Origin: Rhodoferax sp.
Lineage (GTDB): Bacteria; Pseudomonadota; Gammaproteobacteria; Burkholderiales; Burkholderiaceae_C
Length of the DNA: 38,285 nucleotides
Direction: 5' to 3'
Assembly (NCBI RefSeq): GCF_011391645.1
Contig: NZ_JAABQC010000015.1
Span: 1-38,285 of the forward strand
Within the stretch, counting starts at the first letter, position 1. Each line of letters starts with the position of its first letter. The notes under the pieces are model-generated. The model made no database searches. It saw nothing but the letters and a program-made list of their open reading frames with translations, and was not told the DNA's origin. The translations under genes were made by a program, and so were the position numbers. Below are positions 16,025 to 27,344 of the stretch, piece by piece.

Positions 16025-17467
16025 TCACGCCTTCAAGGCCGTCAGCACCTCATCGAGCATCTTCTTGGCGTCACCAAACAGCATACGGTTGTTCTCCTTG
16101 TAGAACAGCGGGTTGTCCACGCCCGCATAGCCGGAGGCCATGCTGCGCTTCATGACGATCGAGGTCTTGGCCTTCCAGACTTCGAGCACCGGCATACCGG
16201 CAATCGGGCTGCTGGGGTCGTCCTGGGCACCGGGGTTGACGATGTCGTTGGCGCCAATCACCATCACCACGTCTGTTTTCGGGAAGTCGTCGTTCAACTC
16301 ATCCATCTCGAACACGATGTCGTAAGGCACCTTGGCCTCGGCCAGCAACACGTTCATGTGGCCCGGCATGCGTCCGGCCACCGGGTGAATGCCAAAGCGC
16401 ACATTGACACCTTTTTCACGCAGGTGCCTGGTGATCTCGAACACCGTGTGCTGGGCCTGCGCCACCGCCATGCCATAGCCCGGAACAATGACCACGCTCT
16501 TGGCCTCGCGCAGCAGCTCGGCAGTCTCCGGGGCACTGATCGGGGTGACCTCGCCGGCGGGTTGCGCGCCGTCACCGGCTGGTTTCGGTGCGGCACTGGC
16601 GGTGCCAAAGCCGCCAGCAATCACGCTGATGAAACTGCGCGCCATGGCCTTGCACATGATGTAGGACAGGATCGCGCCGCTGGAGCCGACCAAAGCACCG
16701 GTGACGATCAGCAAGTCGTTGGACAGCATGAAACCGGTGGCAGCCGCAGCCCAGCCCGAATAGCTGTTGAGCATGGACACCACCACCGGCATGTCAGCGC
16801 CGCCAATGGCCATCACCATGTGAATGCCAAACAGCAGGGCGATCACGGTCATCACAATCAAGGGCAACATGCCGTCGGCGATGGTGTGGGCGTTGACGAA
16901 CTCGCGACCAAACCAGATCACCACCAGCAGCCCGGTCAGGTTCAGCCAATGGCGCCCCGGCAACAGCAGCGGGTTGCCACTGATGCGCCCGGAGAGCTTG
17001 CCAAACGCCACAACGGAGCCAGAAAAAGTCACCGCACCAATCAGGATGCCAATATAAATTTCGATCTTGTGGATCGACTCTTCAGCGGAGGTCAAGGGGG
17101 TGCTCTGGCCATCGACCCAGTGGAACGACGCCGTCGGATCGATGAAGGTGGCAATACCCACCAGCATCGCTGCCAAACCCACCATGCTGTGCATCAAGGC
17201 GACCAGCTCTGGCATTTGCGTCATCTGCACCGTGCGCGCCGCGTACAACCCGACACTGCCGCCCACCAGCATGGCGCCGACGATCCAGGGCAGACCGGCC
17301 CAGGTCACCTGCGGACCAAACACCGTGGCCAGCACCGCCAGCGTCATGCCGATCATGCCGTAGAGGTTGCCGCGCAAGGCGGTTTGCTGGTTGGACAGGC
17401 CGCCCAGGCTCAGAATAAACAGTATGGTTGCGCCGATGTATGCAACCGTGGCCAGACTTGAAGACAT
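16025..17467 (-). CDS. pntB: NAD(P) transhydrogenase subunit beta
   Basis: With PntA it forms the inner membrane proton-translocating transhydrogenase that makes NADPH from NADH. It has 480 residues. About nine hydrophobic helices fill the first ~260 residues (for example [36 protein letters not shown]). The soluble NADP(H)-binding domain III follows ([16 protein letters not shown], then [20 protein letters not shown]). The C-terminus ([13 protein letters not shown]) is canonical. A 57-base gap to pntA holds a 7-bp hairpin (GGACAGA at 17495 with TCTGTCC at 17510), perhaps tuning relative expression. Confidence 0.97.
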
Positions 17468-17524
17468 AGGTATCTCTTTTCTTAATCGGTCGAGGACAGA
17501 GCTGAAGATCTGTCCCCGAAGTCG

Positions 17525-19183
17525 TTACTTTCGGAACATGGCCAGCATGCGCTGGGTGACGGCAAAGCCGCCGAACATGTTGATGGCGGTGAGGACGATC
17601 GCCGCGGCAGCCACCCAGCTGATCAGGTCGTTGGGTCGATCAGCGGCGTTGGCCCAGGGCGAGACCTGCACCAGGGCGCCGATGGCAATGATGCTGCTGA
17701 TCGCGTTGGTCACGCTCATGAGCGGTGTGTGTAATGCCGGCTTGACGTTCCAGACCACCATGTAGCCGACAAAGCAGGCCAGCACGAACACCGTGAAGTG
17801 CGACAGAAATGCCGGTGGCGCGCTTGAGCCAATCAGCCAGAACAACGCGGCAGCCACGCCGAACATGATGGCCAGCTTGCTGCCGGCCATCGGCTCGGCG
17901 TCACCACCACCATGGCCATGCGCCTTTTTGGCGGCGGGCGCGGCGGCGGCCGGCTTGGCGGCTGGCGCGGGTGGCAGCTTGGGTGCCGGGGCGGGCCAGG
18001 TGACTTCGCCTTCCTTGATGACGGTCAGGCCGCGAATGGCGTCGTCTTCCATGTTGACGTTGACAACGCCATCCTTGGTCTTGCACAACTCCTCGGCCAG
18101 CCGAAACAGGTTGCTGGCGTACAGCGTCGACGACTGCTTGGCCAGCCGGCTGACCAGGTCGGTGTAGCCGACGATGGTCACGCCGTGCTTGACCACCGCC
18201 TGGCCGGGCTCGGTCAGCTCGCAGTTGCCGCCCTGCTCGGCGGCCATGTCGACGATGACACTGCCCGGCTTCATGCTCCTGACCATCTCGGCGGTGATCA
18301 GCTTGGGCGCGGGCTTGCCGGGAATGAGCGCGGTGGTGATGATGATGTCGACCTCACGGGCCTGCTTGGCGTACATCTCGCGCTGGGCCTGCTGAAAGCC
18401 CTCGCTCATGACCTTGGCGTAGCCGCCGCCGCCGGAGCCTTCCTCTTCAAAATCAACCTTGACGAATTCGCCACCGAGGGACACCACCTGGTCAGCCACT
18501 TCGGCACGGGTGTCGTTGGCGCGCACAATGGCGCCCAGCCCGGCCGCCGTGCCAATGGCCGCCAGACCGGCAACCCCGGCACCGGCAATGAACACCTTGG
18601 CCGGCGGCACCTTGCCCGCGGCCGTGATCTGGCCGTTGAAGAAGCGGCCAAAGGCATTGGCGGCCTCAATCACGGCACGGTAGCCGGCAACACCCGCCTG
18701 CGAGGTCAGGGCGTCCATCTTCTGGGCCCGGCTGAGCATGCGCGGCAGCGCGTCGATGGCCAGCACGGTCACTTCTTTGGCGGCGAGCTGCTGCATCAGG
18801 TCGGGGTTTTGCGCGGGCCAGACGAAGCCGATCAGGATTTGCCCTGCGCGCATCAGCGCGACTTCATCGGCGGTGGGGGGTCGCACCTTGAACACGATGT
18901 CGGAGCCTGACCACAAGGCGGCGGCCGAGTCGACCACGGTGGCGCCTGCGGCGCGGTAGGTGTCGTCGGAGCAATTTGCCGCATCACCCGCACCGGATTC
19001 GACGGCGACGGAGAAACCCAGCTTGATGAGTTTTTCAACCACCTCCGGTACCGTTGCGACGCGCTTTTCTTCGGGAAAAATTTCTCGCGGGACGCCGATT
19101 CGCTGCGCAGTTTTTATTGATGGCGTGGGGGATGGATCGGCAGGTTTGTCCGATAAGCCTTGAGTGGTGGCACCAGCTTGCAT
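17525..19183 (-). CDS. pntA: NAD(P) transhydrogenase subunit alpha (fused alpha1-alpha2)
   Basis: Holds the NAD(H)-binding domain I (residues about 28-405; RIGVPREIFPEEKRVA at the start, GAGVAGLAAIGTAAGLGA as the Rossmann loop). An Ala/Pro-rich, His-containing linker follows (about 410-440). The C-terminus has the transmembrane alpha2 part with roughly four helices (PPAFLSHFTVFVLACFVGYM, then SSIIAIGALVQVS). At 552 residues it is the fused E. coli-type form. The first ~27 residues (Gln/Pro/Ser/Thr-rich) precede the conserved start of the fold and are an unusual extension; a later start is not offered by a good ATG. It is first gene of the pntAB unit. Confidence 0.95.
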   Translation of the reverse strand: MQAGATTQGLSDKPADPSPTPSIKTAQRIGVPREIFPEEKRVATVPEVVEKLIKLGFSVAVESGAGDAANCSDDTYRAAGATVVDSAAALWSGSDIVFKVRPPTADEVALMRAGQILIGFVWPAQNPDLMQQLAAKEVTVLAIDALPRMLSRAQKMDALTSQAGVAGYRAVIEAANAFGRFFNGQITAAGKVPPAKVFIAGAGVAGLAAIGTAAGLGAIVRANDTRAEVADQVVSLGGEFVKVDFEEEGSGGGGYAKVMSEGFQQAQREMYAKQAREVDIIITTALIPGKPAPKLITAEMVRSMKPGSVIVDMAAEQGGNCELTEPGQAVVKHGVTIVGYTDLVSRLAKQSSTLYASNLFRLAEELCKTKDGVVNVNMEDDAIRGLTVIKEGEVTWPAPAPKLPPAPAAKPAAAAPAAKKAHGHGGGDAEPMAGSKLAIMFGVAAALFWLIGSSAPPAFLSHFTVFVLACFVGYMVVWNVKPALHTPLMSVTNAISSIIAIGALVQVSPWANAADRPNDLISWVAAAAIVLTAINMFGGFAVTQRMLAMFRK

Positions 19184-19348: not shown

Positions 19349-19867
19349 ATGAGCATCCGATGGAAACCCAGCGCCACAGTGGCCGCAATCATTGAACAAA
19401 ACGGCAAATTTCTGCTGGTTGAAGAGCACACCCCGGAGGGCTTGCGCCTGAATAACCCAGCCGGCCACCTCGACGAGGGCGAGCGCCTGGAGGACGGCTG
19501 TGCGCGCGAGGCGCTTGAAGAAACCATGCATCTTTTTACACCCACGCATTTGCTCGGCGTCTACATGTCACGCTTTCAACGCCCGGCCACCGCCGACCAG
19601 GACCATGAGGACATCACCTACCTGCGTTTTGCGTTTTGCGGCACGCTGGGAGCCATGCAGGCGGGGCGCAGCCTGGACACGGGCATTGTGCGCACCCTGT
19701 GGCTGAGCCCGGACGAGATTCGCGCCAGTTCTGCGCGCCACCGCAGTCCGCTCGTCATCCAGTGCATGGAGGACTATTTGCGGGGCCAGCGTTATCCGCT
19801 GTCGCTGATTCATACCGACGCCGGCGTGATCGACCTGCAGCCCGTCGCCGGCGATGGCAGAGCATGA
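19349..19867 (+). CDS. nudJ: NUDIX hydrolase, NudJ-like
   Basis: A 172-residue cytosolic pyrophosphohydrolase. It resembles E. coli NudJ (nucleoside tri/diphosphates and HMP-PP) along the chain: [12 protein letters not shown] near the start, [11 protein letters not shown], and the ending [20 protein letters not shown]. The Nudix box GHLDEGE-x7[10 protein letters not shown] keeps the Gly, the first Glu and REALEE but has Met where the consensus has Gly after EEx. Its stop overlaps the mnmA start by 4 bases (ATGA), and nudJ-mnmA adjacency is also known from E. coli, which supports the assignment. Substrate is inferred. Confidence 0.9.
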
Positions 19868-20979
19868 GCGGCACAACAAAGCGGCAGCGCGTGGTGGTGG
19901 GATTGAGCGGCGGCGTGGACTCTGCCGTGACCGCCTGGCTGCTCAAGCAGCAGGGCCATGAGGTGATCGGCATCTTCATGAAGAACTGGGAGGGCGATGA
20001 CGACAGCGAGTTCTGTTCCTCCAACATCGATTTTGTCGATGCCGCCGCCGTGGCTGATGTGATCGGCATCGAGATCGAGCACGTCAACTTTGCCGCCGAG
20101 TACAAGGACCGGGTGTTTGCCGAGTTTTTGCGCGAGTACAGCGCCGGGCGCACGCCCAACCCCGACATTTTGTGCAACGCCGAGATCAAGTTCAAGGCCT
20201 TTCTCGACCACGCCATGCGCCTCGGGGCCGGAAAAATTGCCACCGGCCATTACGCGCGTGTGCGCGTCAATGCGGGCACCGGCTGCCATGAACTGCTCAA
20301 GGGGCTGGACCCGGCCAAGGATCAAAGCTACTTTTTGCACCGGCTCAACCAGAAGCAATTGGCCAACACCTGGTTTCCTGTGGGCGAATTGCTGAAAACC
20401 GAGGTGCGCCGCATCGCGCTGGAAATTGGCCTGCCCAACGCCAAAAAGAAAGACTCCACCGGCATCTGCTTCATTGGCGAGCGGCCGTTTCGTGAATTCC
20501 TGAACCGCTTTATTGCCAAGGAGCCCGGCCCGATCAGGAGCGACAAGGGTCACGTCATTGGCGAGCATGTGGGATTGAGTTTTTACACGCTGGGGCAGCG
20601 GCAGGGCCTGGGCATTGGCGGCCTCAAAGCCAAAGGGGCGCAGCGCGGTGGCGGTGACCACGCACCCTGGTTTGTGGCGCGCAAGGACATGGCAAGCAAC
20701 ACGCTTTGGGTGGTGCAGGGCCATGAGCACCCGTGGCTGCTGTCAAACGAACTCACGGCGCAGGATGCCAGTTGGGTCGCGGGCCAGCCGCCTGTTGCCA
20801 CAGCGCTGGCCGCCAAAACCCGTTACCGCCAGTTGGATGCGCCCTGCCGCCTGAGCGTTCATGCGGCTGACGCCTTCAGTCTGCAATTTTCTGAGCCGCA
20901 ATGGGCCGTCACGCCCGGCCAGTCTGCCGTGCTGTATGACGGCGAAGTCTGCCTGGGCGGCGGCGTGATCTCAGGCTAA
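19864..20979 (+). CDS. mnmA: tRNA-specific 2-thiouridylase MnmA
   Basis: Adds sulfur to U34 of Lys, Glu and Gln tRNAs using persulfide sulfur relayed from IscS. It has 371 residues. The PP-loop ATPase motif is [13 protein letters not shown] at about 13-25. The two catalytic cysteines are in [12 protein letters not shown] (near 106) and [13 protein letters not shown] (near 204). The C-terminal beta barrel follows ([11 protein letters not shown] to the end). I chose the ATG at 19864, which overlaps nudJ; the reading frame stays open further upstream but that is nudJ in another frame. It converges with the CsoR-family gene with a 4-base overlap of stops. Confidence 0.97.
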
Positions 20980-21266
20980 CCCAGGCGCGAAAGCAGGCTT
21001 TCCATGTCTTTGAGCATGGTGTCCATATTTTCCTTTTGCGCCGCGTCAGGCTCGACGCAAGTGGCCAGTTCTTGCGCCATGAAGCACATCGTCATGCGAA
21101 GGTAGGTGCTGTCGAGCGCCTTGCGCACGGCCGAGAACTGCTGGCCGATCTTCAGGCAGCTTTCGCCCTCTTCGATCATGCGCTGCACGCCTCGGATCTG
21201 GCCCTCGGCGCGCCGCAAGCGGTTCAGCACCTCGGTGCGGGCGGCTTCGTTGGTCAAGACGGTCAT
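20976..21266 (-). CDS. CsoR/CstR/FrmR-family (DUF156) transcriptional repressor, atypical cysteine set
   Basis: A 96-residue all-helical repressor. [24 protein letters not shown] is split here only to describe it: the [12 protein letters not shown] part is the DNA-contacting helix region and GESC holds the conserved Cys37. Family members bind Cu(I), Ni/Co, formaldehyde or sulfane sulfur through Cys37 and residues 25 (His) and 29 (Cys/His) positions later. Here those positions are Phe62 and Glu66, while Cys61 and Cys70 are present. A copper-CsoR or FrmR role is therefore unlikely; a thiol/persulfide sensor of CstR type using Cys37 with Cys61 or Cys70 is possible. It is last in the RND-SQR cluster, 29 bases after the DUF2892-type gene. 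Confidence 0.88.
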
Positions 21267-21295
21267 GCGCGGCTCCCAGGGTCAAGTGTTGGCAC

Positions 21296-21520
21296 TTAGT
21301 TGGCGCAGCCAACTTTTGACTCAGGCACACCCAGCTTTTTCAGGATGATGCCCAGCGGACAAAAATTGGTGAAGCCGGATTGAAACAGATTGGCGCCCAC
21401 AAAAGCGGTAAAGGCCAGCGCCCACTTGCTCACAAACAGCGGGCTGCCTTCGACCCCCAAAGCCAGGGAAATCATGATGAACAGGCCGGCAAAGACCAAG
21501 ATGTAACGTTGAACGGTCAT
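21296..21520 (-). CDS. DUF2892-type small inner membrane protein
   Basis: A 74-residue protein with two hydrophobic helices (about 5-24 and 33-52), then FTNFCPLGIILKKLGV, a conserved ending of the DUF2892/YgaP-like membrane domain. In other bacteria this domain is fused to or sits beside rhodaneses and sulfide-handling genes. Cys54 follows the second helix and Cys72 lies near the end. It lies 17 bases after the SQR-like gene. Function is unknown; a role in moving or anchoring reactive sulfur at the membrane is inferred from context. Confidence 0.85.
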   Translation of the reverse strand: MTVQRYILVFAGLFIMISLALGVEGSPLFVSKWALAFTAFVGANLFQSGFTNFCPLGIILKKLGVPESKVGCAN

Positions 21521-21537
21521 GGTAAAAACTCCTTTGA

Positions 21538-22824
21538 TTACTTGTTGAGACGATTGATGCCGAGCAAACCCATGATGTATTTTTCATAGATGGGCTCGGA
21601 GGTGCCTTTTTTCAGCTTGCGCATGAAATACTTTTCGTAGGCAATTTTGGCCAGGTGCACCCACTTGCCTTTCTTGAACCAGTTCACATTGCGCGGGGGA
21701 ATTTGCGGCAGGGCCACAAAGGCCGCGCCGGTGTCGCCCATGTCGGCCAGGCACACAGCGTTCCAGGTGCCCTTGGCCGTGGCCGGCTTGCCCGCCAGGT
21801 CGTCGGCGATGTTGTGGCAGATGGCGGTCATCATGCTTTCAATCATGTAGCCAGTTTTGGGGCAACCGGTCGGTACCGGCGTGACTTCCACCGGCGGAAT
21901 GGCCACGCATACCCCGGCCGAATAAATGTTGCGGTAGGCCTTGCTGCGCTGGAACTCGTCAATCAGAACCATGCCGCGCGGGTTGCACAAATTGGGTACC
22001 GCCGCCACGGCATCCACCCCCTTGAAGGCCGGCAGCATCATCGACAGCTTGAACGGCACTTCGTGGTCCTTGAGCGCGTTGCCCTGGTCATCGAGTTGCG
22101 TGGTGAACAATTTACCCGCCTCGACCTTGGTGGTTTTGGCGTTGGTGATCCACTTGACGTCACGGTTGCGAAACTCGGACTCCAGCATCGACTTGCTGTC
22201 ACCCACGCCCCCCAGCCCGAGATGGCCGATATAGGGCTCGCTGGTGACGTAGGTGATGGGCACCTTGTTGCGCAGTTTGCGGCGACGCAAGTCGGTGTCA
22301 AGAATCATTGTGAACTCGTACGCCGGGCCAAAGCAGCTCGCACCCGGCATGGCACCGACCACGATCGGGCCAGGGTTCTTTAAAAATTCTTCGTAGTCGG
22401 CAAAGAAGGCCTGCGCGTGATCCACATGGCAAATGGAATGGGTAAAACCGCCGCCACCCGACTTTGCCGGGCCAGCACCCGCCACCTCGTCAAAGGCCAG
22501 CTTGGGGCCGGTGGCGATCAGCAGATAGTCGTAATCCAGTGTCTCACCGTCCAGCAAGGTCAGTTTGCTGGCATCGGCGTCGATGTGGGTAACCGCCTTG
22601 CCAATGAAGCCGATCTTTTTGCGCGCCAGATAGGGCGCAATCGGCAGGGTGACGGCCTCTCGCTCGCGCCAGCCCACCGCAACCCACGGGTTGCTGGGCA
22701 CAAACTGAAAGTAGTCGGTGCTGTTGACCACCGTGATGCGATGCTCCGGGGGCAGCATTTCCCGCAGTTCGTAGGCGGCTGGCATGCCGCCGATCCCTGC
22801 ACCCATGATGACGATGTGAGCCAT
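21538..22824 (-). CDS. sqr: Sulfide:quinone oxidoreductase-like FAD flavoprotein
   Basis: A 428-residue FAD-dependent oxidoreductase that likely oxidises sulfide to sulfane sulfur and passes electrons to quinone at the membrane face. The FAD Rossmann motif is IVIMGAGIGGMPAAYEL. LIATGPKLAFDEV is the second conserved ATG motif. PGASCFGPAYEF (Cys164) and PTGCPKTGYMIES (Cys321) match the redox-active cysteine pair of SQR; Cys132 is a third. YSAGVCVAIPP is near the FAD-contacting C-terminal motif. The end has amphipathic basic segments (FMRKLKKG) suited to membrane docking. It follows the RND pump by 24 bases. The exact SQR class is not assigned; flavocytochrome c dehydrogenase is less likely as no cytochrome partner is present. 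Confidence 0.9.
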   Translation of the reverse strand: MAHIVIMGAGIGGMPAAYELREMLPPEHRITVVNSTDYFQFVPSNPWVAVGWREREAVTLPIAPYLARKKIGFIGKAVTHIDADASKLTLLDGETLDYDYLLIATGPKLAFDEVAGAGPAKSGGGGFTHSICHVDHAQAFFADYEEFLKNPGPIVVGAMPGASCFGPAYEFTMILDTDLRRRKLRNKVPITYVTSEPYIGHLGLGGVGDSKSMLESEFRNRDVKWITNAKTTKVEAGKLFTTQLDDQGNALKDHEVPFKLSMMLPAFKGVDAVAAVPNLCNPRGMVLIDEFQRSKAYRNIYSAGVCVAIPPVEVTPVPTGCPKTGYMIESMMTAICHNIADDLAGKPATAKGTWNAVCLADMGDTGAAFVALPQIPPRNVNWFKKGKWVHLAKIAYEKYFMRKLKKGTSEPIYEKYIMGLLGINRLNK

Positions 22825-22848
22825 GTCCTGTCTCCTGAATAGTTAACG

Positions 22849-25800
22849 TTAATGAGTCTTGCCAAGCACAACCGGCGCATCTGTGCGCGCCTCCATACGG
22901 CGCCGGTACAGCGCGTAATACAACACCGGAATCACCACCAGCGTGAGCAGGGTGGACACCAGAATGCCAAAAATCAGGGAGATCGCGAGCCCGTTGAAAA
23001 TCGGGTCATCCAGAATGAAGAAGGCACCGATCATGGCCGCCAGCCCGGTCAGGGCGATGGGTTGCGCGCGCACCGCGGCCGACTGCACCACCGCCTCCTT
23101 GAACGCCACGCCCTGCGCCACCTGCAGCTCGATAAAGTCCACCAGCAAGATGGAATTGCGCACGATGATGCCCGCCAGCGCGATCATGCCGATCATCGAG
23201 GTGGCGGTGAACTGCGCGCCCAGCAGGGCATGGCCCGGCATGACGCCAATGATGGTGAGCGGAATCGGCGCCATGATCACCAGCGGGGTCAGATAGCTCC
23301 TGAACTGCGCCACCACCAGCAGGTAGATCAGGATCAGGCCCACACCGTAGGCCGCGCCCATGTCCCGGAAAGTGTCATAGGTGATCTGCCACTCACCGTC
23401 CCACTTGATTGAATACTGGCGAAACGGGTCGCTGGGCTGCGAGATCCAATACTCGCCCAGTTCGCCCGTGCCTGGCAACGCCGCCGCCTGCAACTTGTCA
23501 CGGATGGCAAACAAACCATACAACGGCGAGTCGAGCTTGCCCGCCATGTCACCAAAGACGTAGCTGACCCCCTGCAGATTCTTGGTAAAGAAAGGCTTGT
23601 CGATAACACCTGTTTCCACCTGCACCAACTCTGACAAGGGAACCATCTGGCCATTGGCAGCGCGCAAAGGCATGGCCAGAATGGCATCCAGCCCCACCTG
23701 GTCGCCCAGCGGCAACTGCAGCCGTACCGGCACCGGGTACTTGGTGTGGCCGTCATGCAAAAAGGCGGCATCCACCCCGCTGAGCGCAATGGCCGCCGTC
23801 TGCGCCACCATTGCCACCGGAATCCCCAGGGACTCGGCACGCTGACGGCGCACCCGCAGGTAGGCGCGTGGCGCGTCATCCTTGAGCGAGGTGTCCACGC
23901 CCACAATGTCGGGTGTGGCAATAAAGGCTTGCGCCACCCGGCGCGCCAGCGCCTGGCGCCCGGCCTCATCCGGGCCATAAACCTCGGCCACCAGCGGCGA
24001 CATCACCGGGGGACCTGGCGGCACTTCGACCACCTTGACAAGGGCATGGTGGTGCGCGCCAATTTTCTCCAGCGCCGGTCGCAAGCGCTGGGCAATGGCG
24101 TGGCTCTTGTCGCTGCGGTGCTGCTTGTCGACCAGGTTGACCTGCAAGTCGCCCTGCTCGGCATCGGCGCGCAGGTAATACTGGCGCACCAGACCATTGA
24201 AAGTGATCGGCGAAGCCGTGCCGGCATAGGCCTGCAGGTTCAGCACCTCGGGTTGCTGCGCCAGATACGCGCCCAGCTCATGCAGGGCGGCGGCGGTGTT
24301 TTCAAGCGGCGTGCCGGCCGGCATTTCGACCACCACCTGGAACTCGCTCTTGTTGTCAAAGGGCAGCATCTTGAGCACCACCCACTGCACCAGCGTCAGG
24401 CCGACCGACAGCAGCAAGGCCACCAAAATGCCCAAAAACAGCAGCCAGCGCTTTTTGGCACTGTTCAAAAATGGCGTCAGCGCAAAGGTAAACAGTCGCT
24501 GCAGTTTGGGGCCCAGCCCGGAGGGCGCCGCCGTGGCATCGCCGTGCTTGTGCTGGGGCATGACCTTGAGCGCCAGCCAGGGCGTCACGGTGAACGCAAT
24601 GACCAGCGAAATCGCCATGCCCAGGCTGGCGTTGATCGGGATCGGGCTCATGTAGGGGCCCATCAAACCGCTCACAAATGCCATGGGCAGCAAGGCCGCG
24701 ATCACCGTCAGCGTGGCCAGAATGGTGGGGCCACCCACTTCATCCACGGCGGTCGGAATGATCTCGCGCAGGCTGCGCTCGGGATACAGATTTTGGTGGC
24801 GATGGATGTTTTCCACCACCACAATCGCATCATCGACCAGAATGCCGATGGAAAAAATGAGCGCAAACAACGACACCCGGTTCAGCGTGAAGCCCCAGGC
24901 CCAGGAGGCAAACAGGGTGGCCATCAGCGTCAGGATCACGGCGACGCCCACAATCACGGCCTCGCGCCGGCCCAGCGCAAAACCCACCAGCAGAATCACC
25001 GAGCCGGTGGCAAATGCCAGTTTCTGGATCAGCTTGTTGGCTTTGTCCGCCGCTGTTTCACCGTAGTCCCGGGTGATGGTGGTTTGGATGTTGCCGGGGA
25101 TCACGGTGTTGCCGAGTTCCTGCACCCGCGCGCGCACCGCGCGCGACACATCCACGGCATTGGTGCCCGGCTTTTTGGTCACCGTCAGGGTCAGCGCCGG
25201 ATAGACACCACCGGCAGCCACGCCCTCGTCAGCCACCGGCCCGTGCAAGGGCGCAGCCGCCCCTGGCGTGTACCAGACATAGCGCTGCGGCAATTGCGCG
25301 CCGGTCTCAATGCGCGCCACTTCCCGCAGGAACACCGGCAGGCCTTTGCTGACGCCCACCACCAGGTCGCCGACATCTTGCGCCGAGCGCAAAAATTCGC
25401 CCGTTTCCACGCTCAGCATCTGCCCGCCGGGCACCTGCGAATCGAGCACGGCACCCGAGGGCATGCTGACGTTGGCAGCTGCCAGCGTGGCCTTGAGCGA
25501 CAGCACATCGACCCCGCGCTCGCGCAGCCGCACCGGATCCAGCCACACATTCACGGCCCGGTCCGGCCCGCCGATGGACTGCACTTCGCGGGTGCCCGGC
25601 ACACGCTTCAATTCTGCCTCGAGCGTGTTCGCCACCCGCTCCAGGTCGACGGCCGGCAGGGCGTCCTTGCTCCACAAAGTCACCGCCAGCACCGGCACAT
25701 CGTCAATGCCCTTGGGCTTGACGATGGGCGTGAGTGTGCCGAGTTCGCGCGGCAGCCAGTCCTGGTTGGCGTTGAGCACGTCATACAGGCGCACCAGCGC

Positions 25801-26142
25801 CTCGGTGCGTGGCACGCCCACCTTGAACTGCACCGTGATCACCGCCAGGCCGGGGCGCGCCACCGAATAGGTGTGTTCAATACCGGCAATCTGGCTGAGC
25901 ACCTGCTCGGCCGGACGCGCCACCATGTTGTGCACATCCGCGCTGCTGGCCCCTGGGAAAGGAATCAGCACGTTGGCCATGGTGACGTTGATTTGCGGCT
26001 CTTCTTCACGTGGCGTCACCAGCACGGCAAACAGGCCCAGCAGCAGCGCCACCAAGGCCAGCAAGGGCGTGATGGCGTTGAGCTTGAAAGCCCGCGCCAT
26101 GCGCCCTGAAATACCCAATGGGGAATTGTTCGACATGCTCAT
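22849..26142 (-). CDS. RND efflux transporter permease (AcrB/HAE-like)
   Basis: A 1097-residue inner membrane proton-driven pump. The pattern is one N-terminal helix (ITPLLALVALLLGLFAVLVT), a large periplasmic loop, six helices, a second large loop (about 590-910) and six more helices. The TM4 motif GILVDDAIVVVENIH carries the paired Asp of the proton relay, so it should be active. PREEEPQI after helix 1 is typical of this subfamily, not of CzcA heavy-metal pumps. The ending is SLIFGILVSTLLTLVVIPVLY. It follows the adaptor with a 1-base gap. Substrate unknown; linkage to sulfide oxidation suggests sulfur compounds or toxicants formed with them. Confidence 0.93.
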   Translation of the reverse strand: MSMSNNSPLGISGRMARAFKLNAITPLLALVALLLGLFAVLVTPREEEPQINVTMANVLIPFPGASSADVHNMVARPAEQVLSQIAGIEHTYSVARPGLAVITVQFKVGVPRTEALVRLYDVLNANQDWLPRELGTLTPIVKPKGIDDVPVLAVTLWSKDALPAVDLERVANTLEAELKRVPGTREVQSIGGPDRAVNVWLDPVRLRERGVDVLSLKATLAAANVSMPSGAVLDSQVPGGQMLSVETGEFLRSAQDVGDLVVGVSKGLPVFLREVARIETGAQLPQRYVWYTPGAAAPLHGPVADEGVAAGGVYPALTLTVTKKPGTNAVDVSRAVRARVQELGNTVIPGNIQTTITRDYGETAADKANKLIQKLAFATGSVILLVGFALGRREAVIVGVAVILTLMATLFASWAWGFTLNRVSLFALIFSIGILVDDAIVVVENIHRHQNLYPERSLREIIPTAVDEVGGPTILATLTVIAALLPMAFVSGLMGPYMSPIPINASLGMAISLVIAFTVTPWLALKVMPQHKHGDATAAPSGLGPKLQRLFTFALTPFLNSAKKRWLLFLGILVALLLSVGLTLVQWVVLKMLPFDNKSEFQVVVEMPAGTPLENTAAALHELGAYLAQQPEVLNLQAYAGTASPITFNGLVRQYYLRADAEQGDLQVNLVDKQHRSDKSHAIAQRLRPALEKIGAHHHALVKVVEVPPGPPVMSPLVAEVYGPDEAGRQALARRVAQAFIATPDIVGVDTSLKDDAPRAYLRVRRQRAESLGIPVAMVAQTAAIALSGVDAAFLHDGHTKYPVPVRLQLPLGDQVGLDAILAMPLRAANGQMVPLSELVQVETGVIDKPFFTKNLQGVSYVFGDMAGKLDSPLYGLFAIRDKLQAAALPGTGELGEYWISQPSDPFRQYSIKWDGEWQITYDTFRDMGAAYGVGLILIYLLVVAQFRSYLTPLVIMAPIPLTIIGVMPGHALLGAQFTATSMIGMIALAGIIVRNSILLVDFIELQVAQGVAFKEAVVQSAAVRAQPIALTGLAAMIGAFFILDDPIFNGLAISLIFGILVSTLLTLVVIPVLYYALYRRRMEARTDAPVVLGKTH

Positions 26143-26143
26143 C

Positions 26144-27211
26144 TCACTTTGCCGCGCTGGCGGCGGGCTGGGCTCCTGCCAGGCCGCCGCGCACCGGCTC
26201 CAGCGCCACCCGGTCGGCTTCGCTCAGGCCGGCCAGCACTTCAATGCCTTGCGCGCCGTGCTCGGCACCCAGGCGAATCGCCTTGAGTGCAAAACCCTGG
26301 CCCGACACCACATACACGGCGGTCAGTTCGCCGCGGCGCAGCACCGCCGCCGCAGGAATCAGCAAACGCTGCGACTGGCCGGCGGCAAAGCGCACCCGCA
26401 CCTGCTGCCCCGGCAGCAAGCCGCTGGCGGCGCTGGCAGGCAATTCGAGTCGCCACTCAATGGTCTGCGACACCGCATCTGCCGTTGGCAAATGGCTGCT
26501 CTGGCTGGGCCGGATCCATTGCGGCGACCCGTCTGCCGCGCGCACCTGCACCTCCACCAGGGCGCTGCCCTGCACCAGTGCCGAGCGGGAAACCGGCACC
26601 TGCACGACGGCCCGCAAGGGCAGGGGCGCATACAGCGTCAACAACGGCGTGCCCGGAACAGCCAGGTCACCCGCCTCAGAGAGCGTTTGCAGCACAAAGG
26701 CATCAAACGGCGCCGTCACCCGGGTAAAACCCTGCGACAAACCCGACAGCTTTTCACCCGCGCTGGCCTGGTCGCGGCCCGCTTGCGCTGATTTGAGCTG
26801 GGCATCGGCCGTGTCCATGGCCGCCTTGCTGACAAAGCCCTGGGCCAGCAGCTCGCGAGTGCGGTCAAAGTTGGCCTGCGCGTTGCGCAGTTCGGCCTGC
26901 GCCTGGGCGGCCTGCGCCCGGCTGCGCTGCACGCCGGTCTGGGTTTCACTGTCGTCGATGGTGGCCAGCAACTGCCCGGCACGCACCGGGTCACCCGCCT
27001 TGACGGCGAGCGTGACAATGCGGCCCGAGGCCTGCGCCGACACCGTGCTTTGCTTGACCGGCTGCACCACGCCATCCATCTCAAACCCGCTGCCCACGGC
27101 GGCAAGCTTCACCGCCGCCACAGGCACCTGCGGCGGCGTCTGGGCGTTCAAGGGCGGCACTGCCAGGGCCATGAGAGCAACCAATGCACCCAATAAAAAA
27201 GACTGTCGCAT
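26144..27211 (-). CDS. RND efflux periplasmic adaptor subunit (MFP)
   Basis: A 355-residue adaptor bridging pump and outer membrane channel. A Sec signal peptide (MRQSFLLGALVALMALA... ending near PLNAQ, residue 24) has no lipobox Cys, so it is probably not a lipoprotein. The lipoyl/barrel-sandwich half-motifs are VSAQASGRIVTLAVKAGDPV near 58-77 and TRVTAPFDAFV near 165. An alpha-helical hairpin rich in Ala/Gln sits between them (RAQAAQAQAELRNAQANF). The beta-barrel and membrane-proximal domains follow. It is first gene of the five-gene cluster, so no TolC-like protein is encoded with it here. The start has an AAGGAAG ribosome site. Confidence 0.93.
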   Translation of the reverse strand: MRQSFLLGALVALMALAVPPLNAQTPPQVPVAAVKLAAVGSGFEMDGVVQPVKQSTVSAQASGRIVTLAVKAGDPVRAGQLLATIDDSETQTGVQRSRAQAAQAQAELRNAQANFDRTRELLAQGFVSKAAMDTADAQLKSAQAGRDQASAGEKLSGLSQGFTRVTAPFDAFVLQTLSEAGDLAVPGTPLLTLYAPLPLRAVVQVPVSRSALVQGSALVEVQVRAADGSPQWIRPSQSSHLPTADAVSQTIEWRLELPASAASGLLPGQQVRVRFAAGQSQRLLIPAAAVLRRGELTAVYVVSGQGFALKAIRLGAEHGAQGIEVLAGLSEADRVALEPVRGGLAGAQPAASAAK

Positions 27212-27226
27212 AAAGCTTCCTTCAAG

Positions 27227-27264
27227 ATACTCCGGTTAGTATATTTGAATACCCCCACCAGTAC
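27227..27264. promoter_or_regulatory. Two dyad-like sites in the RND-SQR cluster promoter
   Basis: ATACT-CCGGTT-AGTAT (27227-27242) is a 16-bp site with perfect 5-bp arms. A second 16-bp site, ATACCCCCACCAGTAC (27249-27264), has similar A/T-rich ends and a C-rich core. Their starts are 22 bp apart, about two helical turns. A/T flanks around a C/G core are typical of CsoR/CstR-family operators, and a member of that family ends this cluster. The first site overlaps a minus-strand TATACT (-10-like) at 27238-27243. No good -35 is seen. Binding by the linked repressor is inferred. Confidence 0.5.
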
Positions 27265-27286
27265 TTGAGAAAACGCAATAAACCAT

Positions 27287-27325
27287 AAAAAATCCCCGGA
27301 AAATCAAAGACCTTCCGGGGATTTT
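27287..27325 (-). terminator. Rho-independent terminator after ssb
   Basis: On the minus strand, AAAATCCCCGGAA (from 27325) pairs with TTCCGGGGATTTT (to about 27289) across a 10-base loop and is followed by U-rich sequence. It starts about 20 bases after the ssb stop and insulates ssb from the RND-SQR promoter. Confidence 0.87.
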
Positions 27326-27344
27326 CGGGATCGGGTTGTCGGGT

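Follow-up and report, generated by a model that had tools for sequence, protein, structure and literature searches.

Five adjacent genes on the minus strand, coding for an RND periplasmic adaptor, an RND permease (the pump), a sulfide:quinone oxidoreductase (SQR), a DUF2892 membrane protein and a CsoR-family repressor, form a block in the window, by which we mean the whole stretch of 38,285 nucleotides of Rhodoferax sp. DNA that was analysed. The block is likely one operon, and its reading as one unit with its own repressor, already put forward in the initial annotation, is supported at the level of sequence, since a predicted operator is conserved among relatives and single in the assembly, which encodes one CsoR-family protein. 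This five-gene unit is real but not unusual. Its role as a sulfide defence, combining sulfide oxidation with export of the resulting sulfur species or of a sulfide-derived toxicant, is held here with slightly better than even confidence.

Sulfide oxidation yields sulfane sulfur, which is sticky and toxic; how it leaves the cell is unsettled, and for most RND pumps the natural substrate is unknown. A pump family that neighbours genes for sulfide handling while the repressor varies (CsoR in this block, ArsR in others) would lend itself to a direct test in cultured bacteria, which would address both matters.

The five genes and their products

The ORF coordinates and Pfam matches (HlyD_3/HlyD_D23, ACR_tran, Pyr_redox_2, YgaP-like_TM and Trns_repr_metal, by gene) bore out the five genes, their order and the gaps of 1, 24, 17 and 29 bases given in the initial annotation. 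The features, all on the minus strand, are the following:

27288..27326, minus: hairpin resembling a terminator, following the upstream ssb gene; stem of 18 pairs with a T-rich tail
26144..27211, minus: RND periplasmic adaptor (membrane fusion protein), 355 aa, no Cys; Pfam, NCBIfam and PDB match
22849..26142, minus: RND permease, 1097 aa, no Cys, paired Asp437/Asp438; Pfam ACR_tran, 472.5 bits
21538..22824, minus: SQR, 428 aa, Cys132/Cys164/Cys358; match to the A. ferrooxidans SQR 3sz0
21296..21520, minus: DUF2892 / YgaP-like TM membrane protein, 74 aa, Cys54; Pfam PF11127, 39.9 bits, cut-off 25.3
20976..21266, minus: CsoR-family repressor, 96 aa, Cys37, Cys61 and Cys70; Pfam PF02583, 77 bits

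The block is limited upstream by the hairpin with its T-rich tail behind ssb and downstream by the convergent mnmA gene. As a class, terminator-like hairpins were not enriched in the region (8 observed, 7.2 expected).

The adaptor scored 178.4 bits against the NCBIfam model RND_mfp (cut-off 94.9), and its best PDB match was 6vej, an RND membrane fusion protein. The Asp437/Asp438 pair was preserved in 94 of 94 aligned sequences, the window's own counted, and the combination of an ACR_tran permease bearing this TM4 pair with an adaptor identifies an RND tripartite pump; no outer-membrane channel gene was present in the five-gene block, and the pump reached no cut-off of the NCBIfam subfamily models. 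The EEEPQI stretch reported earlier was located within the pump. Cysteine was lacking in 85 of 95 HMM-trimmed sequences of the pump family and in 55 of 79 untrimmed ORFs, versus 2 of 33 control pumps, a comparison whose p value is no independent test and is disregarded, as the controls include the window's own pump (L093) and two apparent wrong frames (L179 and L181) and many of the remaining ones resemble one ortholog group in length and score.

The SQR was related over its whole length to the A. ferrooxidans enzyme 3sz0 (E 2e-174, residues 2-427), one of several Acidithiobacillus ferrooxidans SQRs with which it shares the conserved cysteines. Cys132, Cys164 and Cys358, which we take to be the redox set of the A. 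ferrooxidans-type SQR, presumably type I, align with cysteines in 3sz0 and were each preserved in 55 of 56 aligned sequences, while Cys306 was found in 56 of 56. The initial annotation had pointed to Cys164 and Cys321: both residues exist and the former is conserved, but Cys321 does not belong to the conserved cysteines of SQR, being shared by 2 of 56 aligned sequences (the window's is one of the two) and replaced by Ala in the A. ferrooxidans SQR. Cys321 was rejected as a redox partner, with Ala or Thr at this position in 53 of the 56.

In the DUF2892 protein, Cys54 was invariant (51 of 51 aligned sequences, the window's own counted).

The repressor satisfied the CsoR/RcnR family profile, with a predicted three-helix CsoR fold, and is the sole CsoR-family protein encoded in the assembly. 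Cys37 was found in 45, Cys61 in 44 and Cys70 in 32 of 45 aligned sequences; among the 118 closest homologs, however, 117 have Cys70. The earlier assignment to a CsoR/CstR family thus held for the CsoR family and not for copper CsoR, and CstR identity is doubtful. Among the C-H-C ligands of copper CsoR, Cys37 is kept and the place of the His is taken by Phe62 in an ungapped structural match to 6ahx (8-67 to 17-76) or by Glu66 in a gapped HMMER alignment; copper CsoR identity was rejected, as neither alignment places a His there. The doubt about CstR arises because its literal cysteine spacing is absent from the sequence: the Staphylococcus aureus CstR of the cst operon, likewise a CsoR-family repressor of sulfide-oxidation genes with a two-cysteine sensor, carries C31/C60 (C-X28-C), whereas the most conserved pair of the window's repressor is Cys37/Cys61 (C-X23-C), and Cys37/Cys70 gives C-X32-C. 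The second CstR cysteine falls on Cys70 in the gapped alignment versus Glu66 in the ungapped structural match. In structural matching of the repressor, a family missing from the results is uninformative. The gene order and the operator place the repressor gene beside sulfide-oxidation genes, as in CstR systems, and their repression is predicted. It is likely that the repressor senses reactive sulfur.

Candidate promoter and operator ahead of the adaptor gene

The region preceding the adaptor gene holds, judged from pattern counts, a conserved candidate operator of CsoR type that sits inside the putative promoter:

27261..27266, minus: candidate -35, AAGTAC, placed by eye with a 17-base spacer to the -10
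27249..27263, minus: operator site 1, TACTGGTGGGGGTAT (TAC-N5-GGGGTAT), overlapping the -35/-10 spacer; from pattern counts
27238..27243, minus: candidate -10, TATACT, following operator site 1 in many relatives
27227..27242, minus: operator site 2, inverted repeat ATACT-N6-AGTAT; from pattern counts

A sigma-70 scan listed no minus-strand promoter ahead of the adaptor gene, nor this candidate -35, whose counterpart in many relatives reads TTGTAC or ATGTAC. The palindrome score for TACCCC/GGGGTA reached at least 10 in 12 of 28 loci of the window's pump branch versus 2 of 61 others, and did not single out the window, which scored only 9 (p 0.375); for this reason the form TAC-N5-GGGGTA was adopted. 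This form, picked after viewing the same upstream regions in which it was counted, was present at 23 of 29 loci of the branch versus 2 of 63 others. Operator site 2 was found at 13 of the 29 loci and at 0 of the 63, and it overlaps site 1 in L015 and L020. The combined 37-base pattern matched the window with 0 mismatches and was found in 0 of 100 shuffles. At up to two mismatches it occurred at one place in the assembly, where the match was exact, and a reversed control pattern at two mismatches also gave one.

Recurrence in relatives and known systems

Similar blocks recur across Burkholderiales in many species, which answers the earlier call for a search of the five-gene order in other genomes; a strain-specific gene order was rejected, and this recurrence argues that chance does not explain the arrangement. 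Among the named pumps, 62 loci had complete flanks: an adaptor was found at 61, DUF2892 at 53, SQR at 20, an outer-membrane channel at 17, a rhodanese at 10 and a thioredoxin at 9, which marks adaptor, pump and DUF2892 as the constant part and SQR as an optional, recurrent passenger. None of 30 control loci of ordinary RND pumps had SQR or DUF2892 in flanks of at most 1.5 kb per side. The slot of SQR in the gene order differed by branch of the pump tree, with three branch-specific slots, the third branch of the neighbourhood table (24 rows) not being one side of a reduced-tree branch.

Within the set distances, SQR was absent beside 42 of the 62 named pumps, a count in which L051 (SQR 5.2 kb upstream) and L059 (a 31-bit SQR fragment) were scored as lacking it and the SQR truncated at the edge of L071 did not enter the SQR total. 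In a 78-pump tree comprising 77 named pumps and the window's, with SQR state known for 63, presence and absence changed at least 17 times, which suggests that the linkage between SQR and pump has often been lost or remade. Among the genomes of 100 relatives, 52 carried pump and SQR, 13 the pump only, 6 SQR only and 29 neither, and 43 of 62 SQR loci lay within 4 kb of a same-strand pump ortholog, counts that leave out a 47% identical SQR in G087 and, for matches that were split or ran into a contig end, the second piece. These neighbourhoods and the co-occurrence support the proposed link of the pump to sulfide genes. Since SQR is missing beside so many pumps and from the pump-only genomes, what the pump transports may differ from what SQR produces.

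In other branches of the pump family, ArsR genes take the place of CsoR; in the neighbourhood table a CsoR gene counted as absent when it lay over 6 kb from the start of the pump, as at L012, L128 and L129. Two ArsR neighbours were compared with solved structures, and both best matched 3pqj, a 'biofilm growth-associated repressor' that is presumably BigR. Repressors of the SqrR/BigR/YgaV type are sulfane-sulfur regulators of a family other than the window's CsoR, and available passages of PMC12423496 place them near sqr, pdo, rhodanese and RND pump genes, the pumps being listed as their targets by gene neighbourhood. Passages of PMC10318464 and PMC5480029 name no RND pump in CstR operons; the present block has one.

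Published work on Azospira suillum PS already describes an operon that joins SQR, RND pump and adaptor and is expressed under H2S: by the passages of PMC5358917, its four genes, Dsui_3440-3443, encode these three proteins and one of unknown function, are highly expressed under H2S-oxidising conditions and give a Bar-seq fitness signal. According to the same passages, deletion of SQR alone or of the four genes left H2S oxidation unchanged (0.49 vs 0.50 mM/h for the whole operon). Compared by description, the two systems share SQR, pump, adaptor and one further gene, and differ in that the Azospira SQR lies between pump and adaptor and no CsoR is named in those passages, whereas here SQR follows the pump. 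The Azospira-like order MFP-SQR-RND-DUF2892 was also found at L039, L062, L065 and L151-L154, with L054 cut off after the pump. The pump beside SQR, described as unusual in the initial annotation, is therefore not so: it recurs across Burkholderiales and has a published precedent (PMC5358917).

Proposed function and alternative explanations

As a sulfide defence, the block would work as follows. In the absence of reactive sulfur, both operator sites of the promoter before the adaptor gene would be occupied by the repressor, whose gene lies 6 kb away. A rise of sulfane sulfur (persulfide or polysulfide) would make Cys37 react with Cys61 (or Cys70) of the partner subunit, by analogy with C31 and C60' of CstR, and the DNA would be released. 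All five genes would then be expressed, which by the gene order includes the repressor and would close a negative feedback loop. SQR, which has the conserved cysteines of its family, would convert sulfide into sulfane sulfur while reducing quinone. The adaptor and pump, joined by an outer-membrane channel encoded elsewhere, would likely expel a sulfur product, polysulfide or other, which the invariant Cys54 of DUF2892 might present to the pump. Export of sulfur species or of a sulfide-derived toxicant is the likely function of the pump, its substrate being putative, and cells with the block are predicted probably to expel a sulfur by-product besides oxidising sulfide.

Neither rhodanese nor persulfide dioxygenase is encoded in the window, as noted earlier, nor on its contig: none of the genome's 10 rhodanese matches and 3 dioxygenase-like matches lie there. 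The fate of the sulfane sulfur had been called open on this ground; the absence from the window stands, but a candidate, a dioxygenase-rhodanese fusion gene, is present on another contig, and the view that sulfane sulfur has no outlet was rejected. Judging by its family, the fusion protein would oxidise the sulfane sulfur remaining inside. Several findings count against the sulfide-defence explanation: the unchanged H2S oxidation of the Azospira deletion mutants, the pumps and genomes lacking SQR, the missing outer-membrane channel gene and the weak spots of the operator patterns given above. In addition, TTHA1953, a sulfur regulator of the CsoR type, still bound DNA when NaHS was present (PMC10318464).

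A narrower proposal is a dedicated sulfane-sulfur exporter, in which polysulfide formed by SQR at the membrane would pass as a persulfide on Cys54 of DUF2892 to a Cys-free pump under a new C-X23-C CsoR-family sensor, the pump having shed its own cysteines to escape modification; we put it forward tentatively, as a rather unlikely case. Export of metal ions or metal-sulfide complexes accumulating under sulfide, with SQR linked through the sulfide-metal effect, is unlikely: the Azospira authors proposed metal sulfide export by pumps raised under H2S (PMC5358917, in the passages available) and CsoR-family repressors are frequently metal sensors, but Phe62 or Glu66, by alignment, stands in the repressor where copper CsoR has its His, pump and adaptor lack Cys, and the pump scored 214.8 bits against the CusA/CzcA heavy-metal subfamily model (NCBIfam TIGR00914), below its cut-off of 701.45.

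The pump is of the AcrB-like RND kind, and sulfane sulfur is reported to act on MarR, MexR and MgrA, which repress genes for antibiotic resistance (PMC9495516); both would fit a broad-range pump for lipophiles such as organic persulfides, damaged quinones or toxicants from sulfide-poisoned respiration, sulfur export not being its job. Such a role is improbable, the ties of the pump family to DUF2892, SQR, rhodanese and thioredoxin being tighter than a general pump requires. That the genes are neighbours by chance or hitch-hiking, with no common function, would be consistent with the gain and loss of SQR beside the pump; it is nevertheless very improbable, given co-location repeated in three different slots with tight spacing and a single conserved candidate operator ahead of the first gene.

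The block, its surroundings and the SQR

The assembly harboring the window comprises 2.74 Mb in 167 contigs and is 93% complete, the window being one of these contigs. The initial annotation had described a five-gene minus-strand block, and this was borne out, since all five ORFs were found and each was backed by Pfam. The block and its downstream neighbor are arranged as follows:

26144-27211 (-), RND adaptor
22849-26142 (-), RND pump
21538-22824 (-), SQR
21296-21520 (-), DUF2892 protein
20976-21266 (-), CsoR-family repressor
19636-20979 (+), mnmA (tRNA 2-thiouridylase), downstream of the block, convergent with the repressor gene, stop codons overlapping

The five genes are probably cotranscribed. 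The block is preceded by ssb, with a hairpin and a T-rich tail. An ORF of the cluster to which MnmA belongs was also convergent behind the unit in five other loci (L009, L010, L015, L026 and L029), a recurrence attributed to shared synteny of close relatives. By eye, two long ORFs at 16025-19183 (-) resemble PntB and PntA, subunits of NAD(P) transhydrogenase, and a Nudix-like ORF lies at 19349-19867.

The SQR matched the Acidithiobacillus ferrooxidans enzyme (3sz0) over its whole length (E 2e-174), and Cys132, Cys164 and Cys358, each opposite a cysteine in 3sz0, were conserved in 55 of the 56 sequences aligned, the window's among them. Of the two residues previously named, Cys164 thus belongs to the conserved set, whereas Cys321 is a cysteine in only two of the 56, one being the window's own. 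No second close SQR was found in this genome, where three further matches were obtained, the one listed being 29% identical over 121 residues. Some relatives carry another flavoprotein with a weak match to the SQR profile (49-75 bits), placed between DUF2892 and the repressor in loci L128 and L129 and after DUF2892 in L126.

Spread of the unit and position of SQR

One hundred genomes (60 of the same genus, including the window's own, and 40 of the same order) were each searched with SQR and with the pump, an ortholog being counted at about 60% identity or above and partial contig-end matches being included. Both orthologs were found in 52 genomes, the pump alone in 13, SQR alone in six and neither in 29; kinship among the genomes inflates the significance of this co-occurrence (Fisher), so these counts are taken as description. 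In 43 of the 62 SQR loci the pump lay on the same strand at most 4 kb away, with SQR immediately behind it in 33, and several of the other 19 stand at contig ends. Neither SQR nor DUF2892 was found within 1.5 kb on either side of control RND loci (0/30, drawn from 40 genomes, three with flanks shortened by contig ends).

Five of the six genomes with SQR but without a pump ortholog carry a 40-43% identical pump (G005:C185, G045:C45, G074:C1, G092:C28 and G093:C7; the exception is G049), perhaps representing a sister family. The G074 copy (L155) has SQR, DUF2892 and a low-scoring match to an outer-membrane channel nearby.

A scan of named genomes returned at least 80 pump loci, of which 80 were annotated with profiles built from these loci, the neighbor families being confirmed by Pfam on ten examples. 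Among the matches listed, the nearest named relatives of the window pump were Rhodoferax MAGs, and the 62 named loci with full flanks presented an adaptor in 61 cases, DUF2892 in 53, SQR in 20, an outer-membrane channel gene in 17, rhodanese in 10 and thioredoxin in nine. The regulator within the set distance of these 62 listed pumps was ArsR in 30, CsoR in eight, both in one, and none was found in 23.

The window's branch of the pump tree (29 rows) and a second branch (34 rows) had supports of 100 and 99, respectively, in a reduced tree of 78 rows, and SQR, where present, occupied one slot per branch among the named loci and the window. The window's branch follows the order RND-SQR-DUF2892 (SQR present in nine, absent in 10, state unknown in three, counting named loci and the window). 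In the second branch SQR stands behind DUF2892, often separated from it by channel or thioredoxin genes (10 with, 14 without, six unknown), and in a further set of 21 loci its slot is between adaptor and pump (four, 12 and five, respectively). Eight deeper loci outside these sets (L072-L074, L078, L079, L083, L085 and L087) scored no SQR, and at the distant pump L155 the layout is of a fourth kind, SQR and DUF2892 preceding the pump. SQR presence required at least 17 changes on the tree (63 rows of known state). These branch-specific slots and state changes indicate, at the level of gene content, that adaptor, pump and DUF2892 are the constant unit, to which SQR was repeatedly added or from which it was lost. 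No description of pump and DUF2892, rather than SQR, as the constant part was found in the literature searched.

The window pump and adaptor lack cysteine, as do 85 of 95 family pumps (HMM-trimmed sequences), and Cys54 of DUF2892 was kept in 51 of 51 aligned sequences. In the window's branch, DUF2892 and the repressor are separated by an OsmC-like gene in L111, L130, L131 and L133, and a SLAC1-like channel gene follows DUF2892 in L012, L014, L019, L021, L022, L023, L024 and L043 (Pfam check on L019); the SLAC1 family includes sulfite exporters. The pump of L037 (4401-7619) is split into two adjacent ORFs, either because the gene is disrupted or through an error in sequencing.

Putative operator and repressor

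Upstream of the adaptor, positions 27263-27227 read TACTGGTGGGGGTAT-TCAAAT-ATACT-AACCGG-AGTAT. By eye, a -35-like and a -10-like element can be recognized; operator site 1 spans their spacer, and site 2 is an inverted repeat overlapping the -10-like element. CsoR-family operators are described as pseudo-palindromes carrying a G or C run, the Mycobacterium tuberculosis operator overlapping both -35 and -10 (PMC10318464). The motif TAC-N5-GGGGTA preceded the adaptor match in 23 of the 29 loci of the window's branch vs two of 63 others (300 bases searched, 156 in L025; the L018 copy on the reverse strand alone), and occurred elsewhere in the same loci five times in 1.50 Mb. Since the motif was chosen after viewing these regions, the test lies in the contrast with other branches and background, not in the within-branch count. 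Site 2 was found in 13 of 29 loci vs none of 63, overlapping site 1 in L015 and L020. Site 1 plus ATACT, allowing up to two mismatches, occurred at one place in the assembly, the window's (no mismatches), and a reversed control pattern also at one. The only CsoR-family protein in the assembly is the window's repressor, which would bind this predicted operator and repress the block.

Among aligned repressors, Cys37 was kept in 45 of 45, Cys61 in 44 and Cys70 in 32, L043 having Ser at position 61. Cys37 and Cys61 are present in all 118 closest 96-residue homologs and Cys70 in 117, so close relatives retain three cysteines. In a HMMER alignment with a four-residue gap, the second Cys place is taken by Cys70 and the His place by Glu66. 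The predicted model superposed on 6ahx over 60 residues at 2.2 Å (8-67 to 17-76, equal ranges) equates Phe62, the residue next after Cys61, with the His place and Glu66 with the Cys place. As His is missing under both alignments, a copper CsoR was excluded. CstR has a C-X28-C pair, whereas this repressor lacks a literal one and its second Cys place (Cys70 or Glu66) depends on the alignment, so that its assignment to CstR is doubtful. Distant CsoR-family genes were found divergently beside pumps of other branches:

L051, 6078-6371 (-), distant CsoR-family gene
L057, 5841-6314 (-), distant CsoR-family gene

Both products keep the 24-residue Cys spacing without a third Cys at the place of Cys70, which favors Cys37/Cys61 as the working pair in these sequence comparisons.

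The neighbors of the repressor and its replacement by ArsR in other branches suggest that it senses persulfide. For two ArsR neighbors tested, 3pqj was the top match and HlyU and YgaV entries ranked lower; the second match of one was 6o8k-6o8o (SqrR). Many other ArsR neighbors of the pump family have a different cysteine layout, as read from their sequences.

Known systems and sulfane sulfur

The initial annotation regarded an SQR-linked RND pump as unusual; this does not hold, given the 20 of 62 listed named pumps with SQR and an association already in print. Azospira suillum PS carries an operon for a protein of unknown function, a cation/multidrug efflux pump, SQR and an RND adaptor, which was conspicuous in Bar-seq fitness data and strongly expressed under H2S-oxidizing conditions (PMC5358917). 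H2S was oxidized as before when SQR or all of the operon had been deleted, and the authors proposed that metal sulfides are exported by efflux pumps whose levels rise under H2S (PMC5358917). A 2025 paper counts RND pumps among the genes probably controlled by ArsR regulators of the sulfane-sulfur type (PMC12423496). Unchanged oxidation together with a fitness signal would fit a protective unit rather than the main sulfide sink. The probable cargo of the pump is a sulfur species or a toxicant derived from sulfide. A CsoR-run version with a two-site operator and conserved Cys37/Cys61 was not found in the literature searched.

The window indeed lacks a dioxygenase or rhodanese, as previously noted, but the fate of the sulfane sulfur, then left open, has a candidate elsewhere in the genome. 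A 370-residue protein on contig C147 (L201, 521-1633) matched the BpPRF dioxygenase-rhodanese fusion 5ve3 (E 7e-58), as well as ETHE1 (4chl) and rhodanese chains, a second dioxygenase-like protein is encoded on C112 (L200, 1486-2103), and rhodanese matches in this genome total 10.
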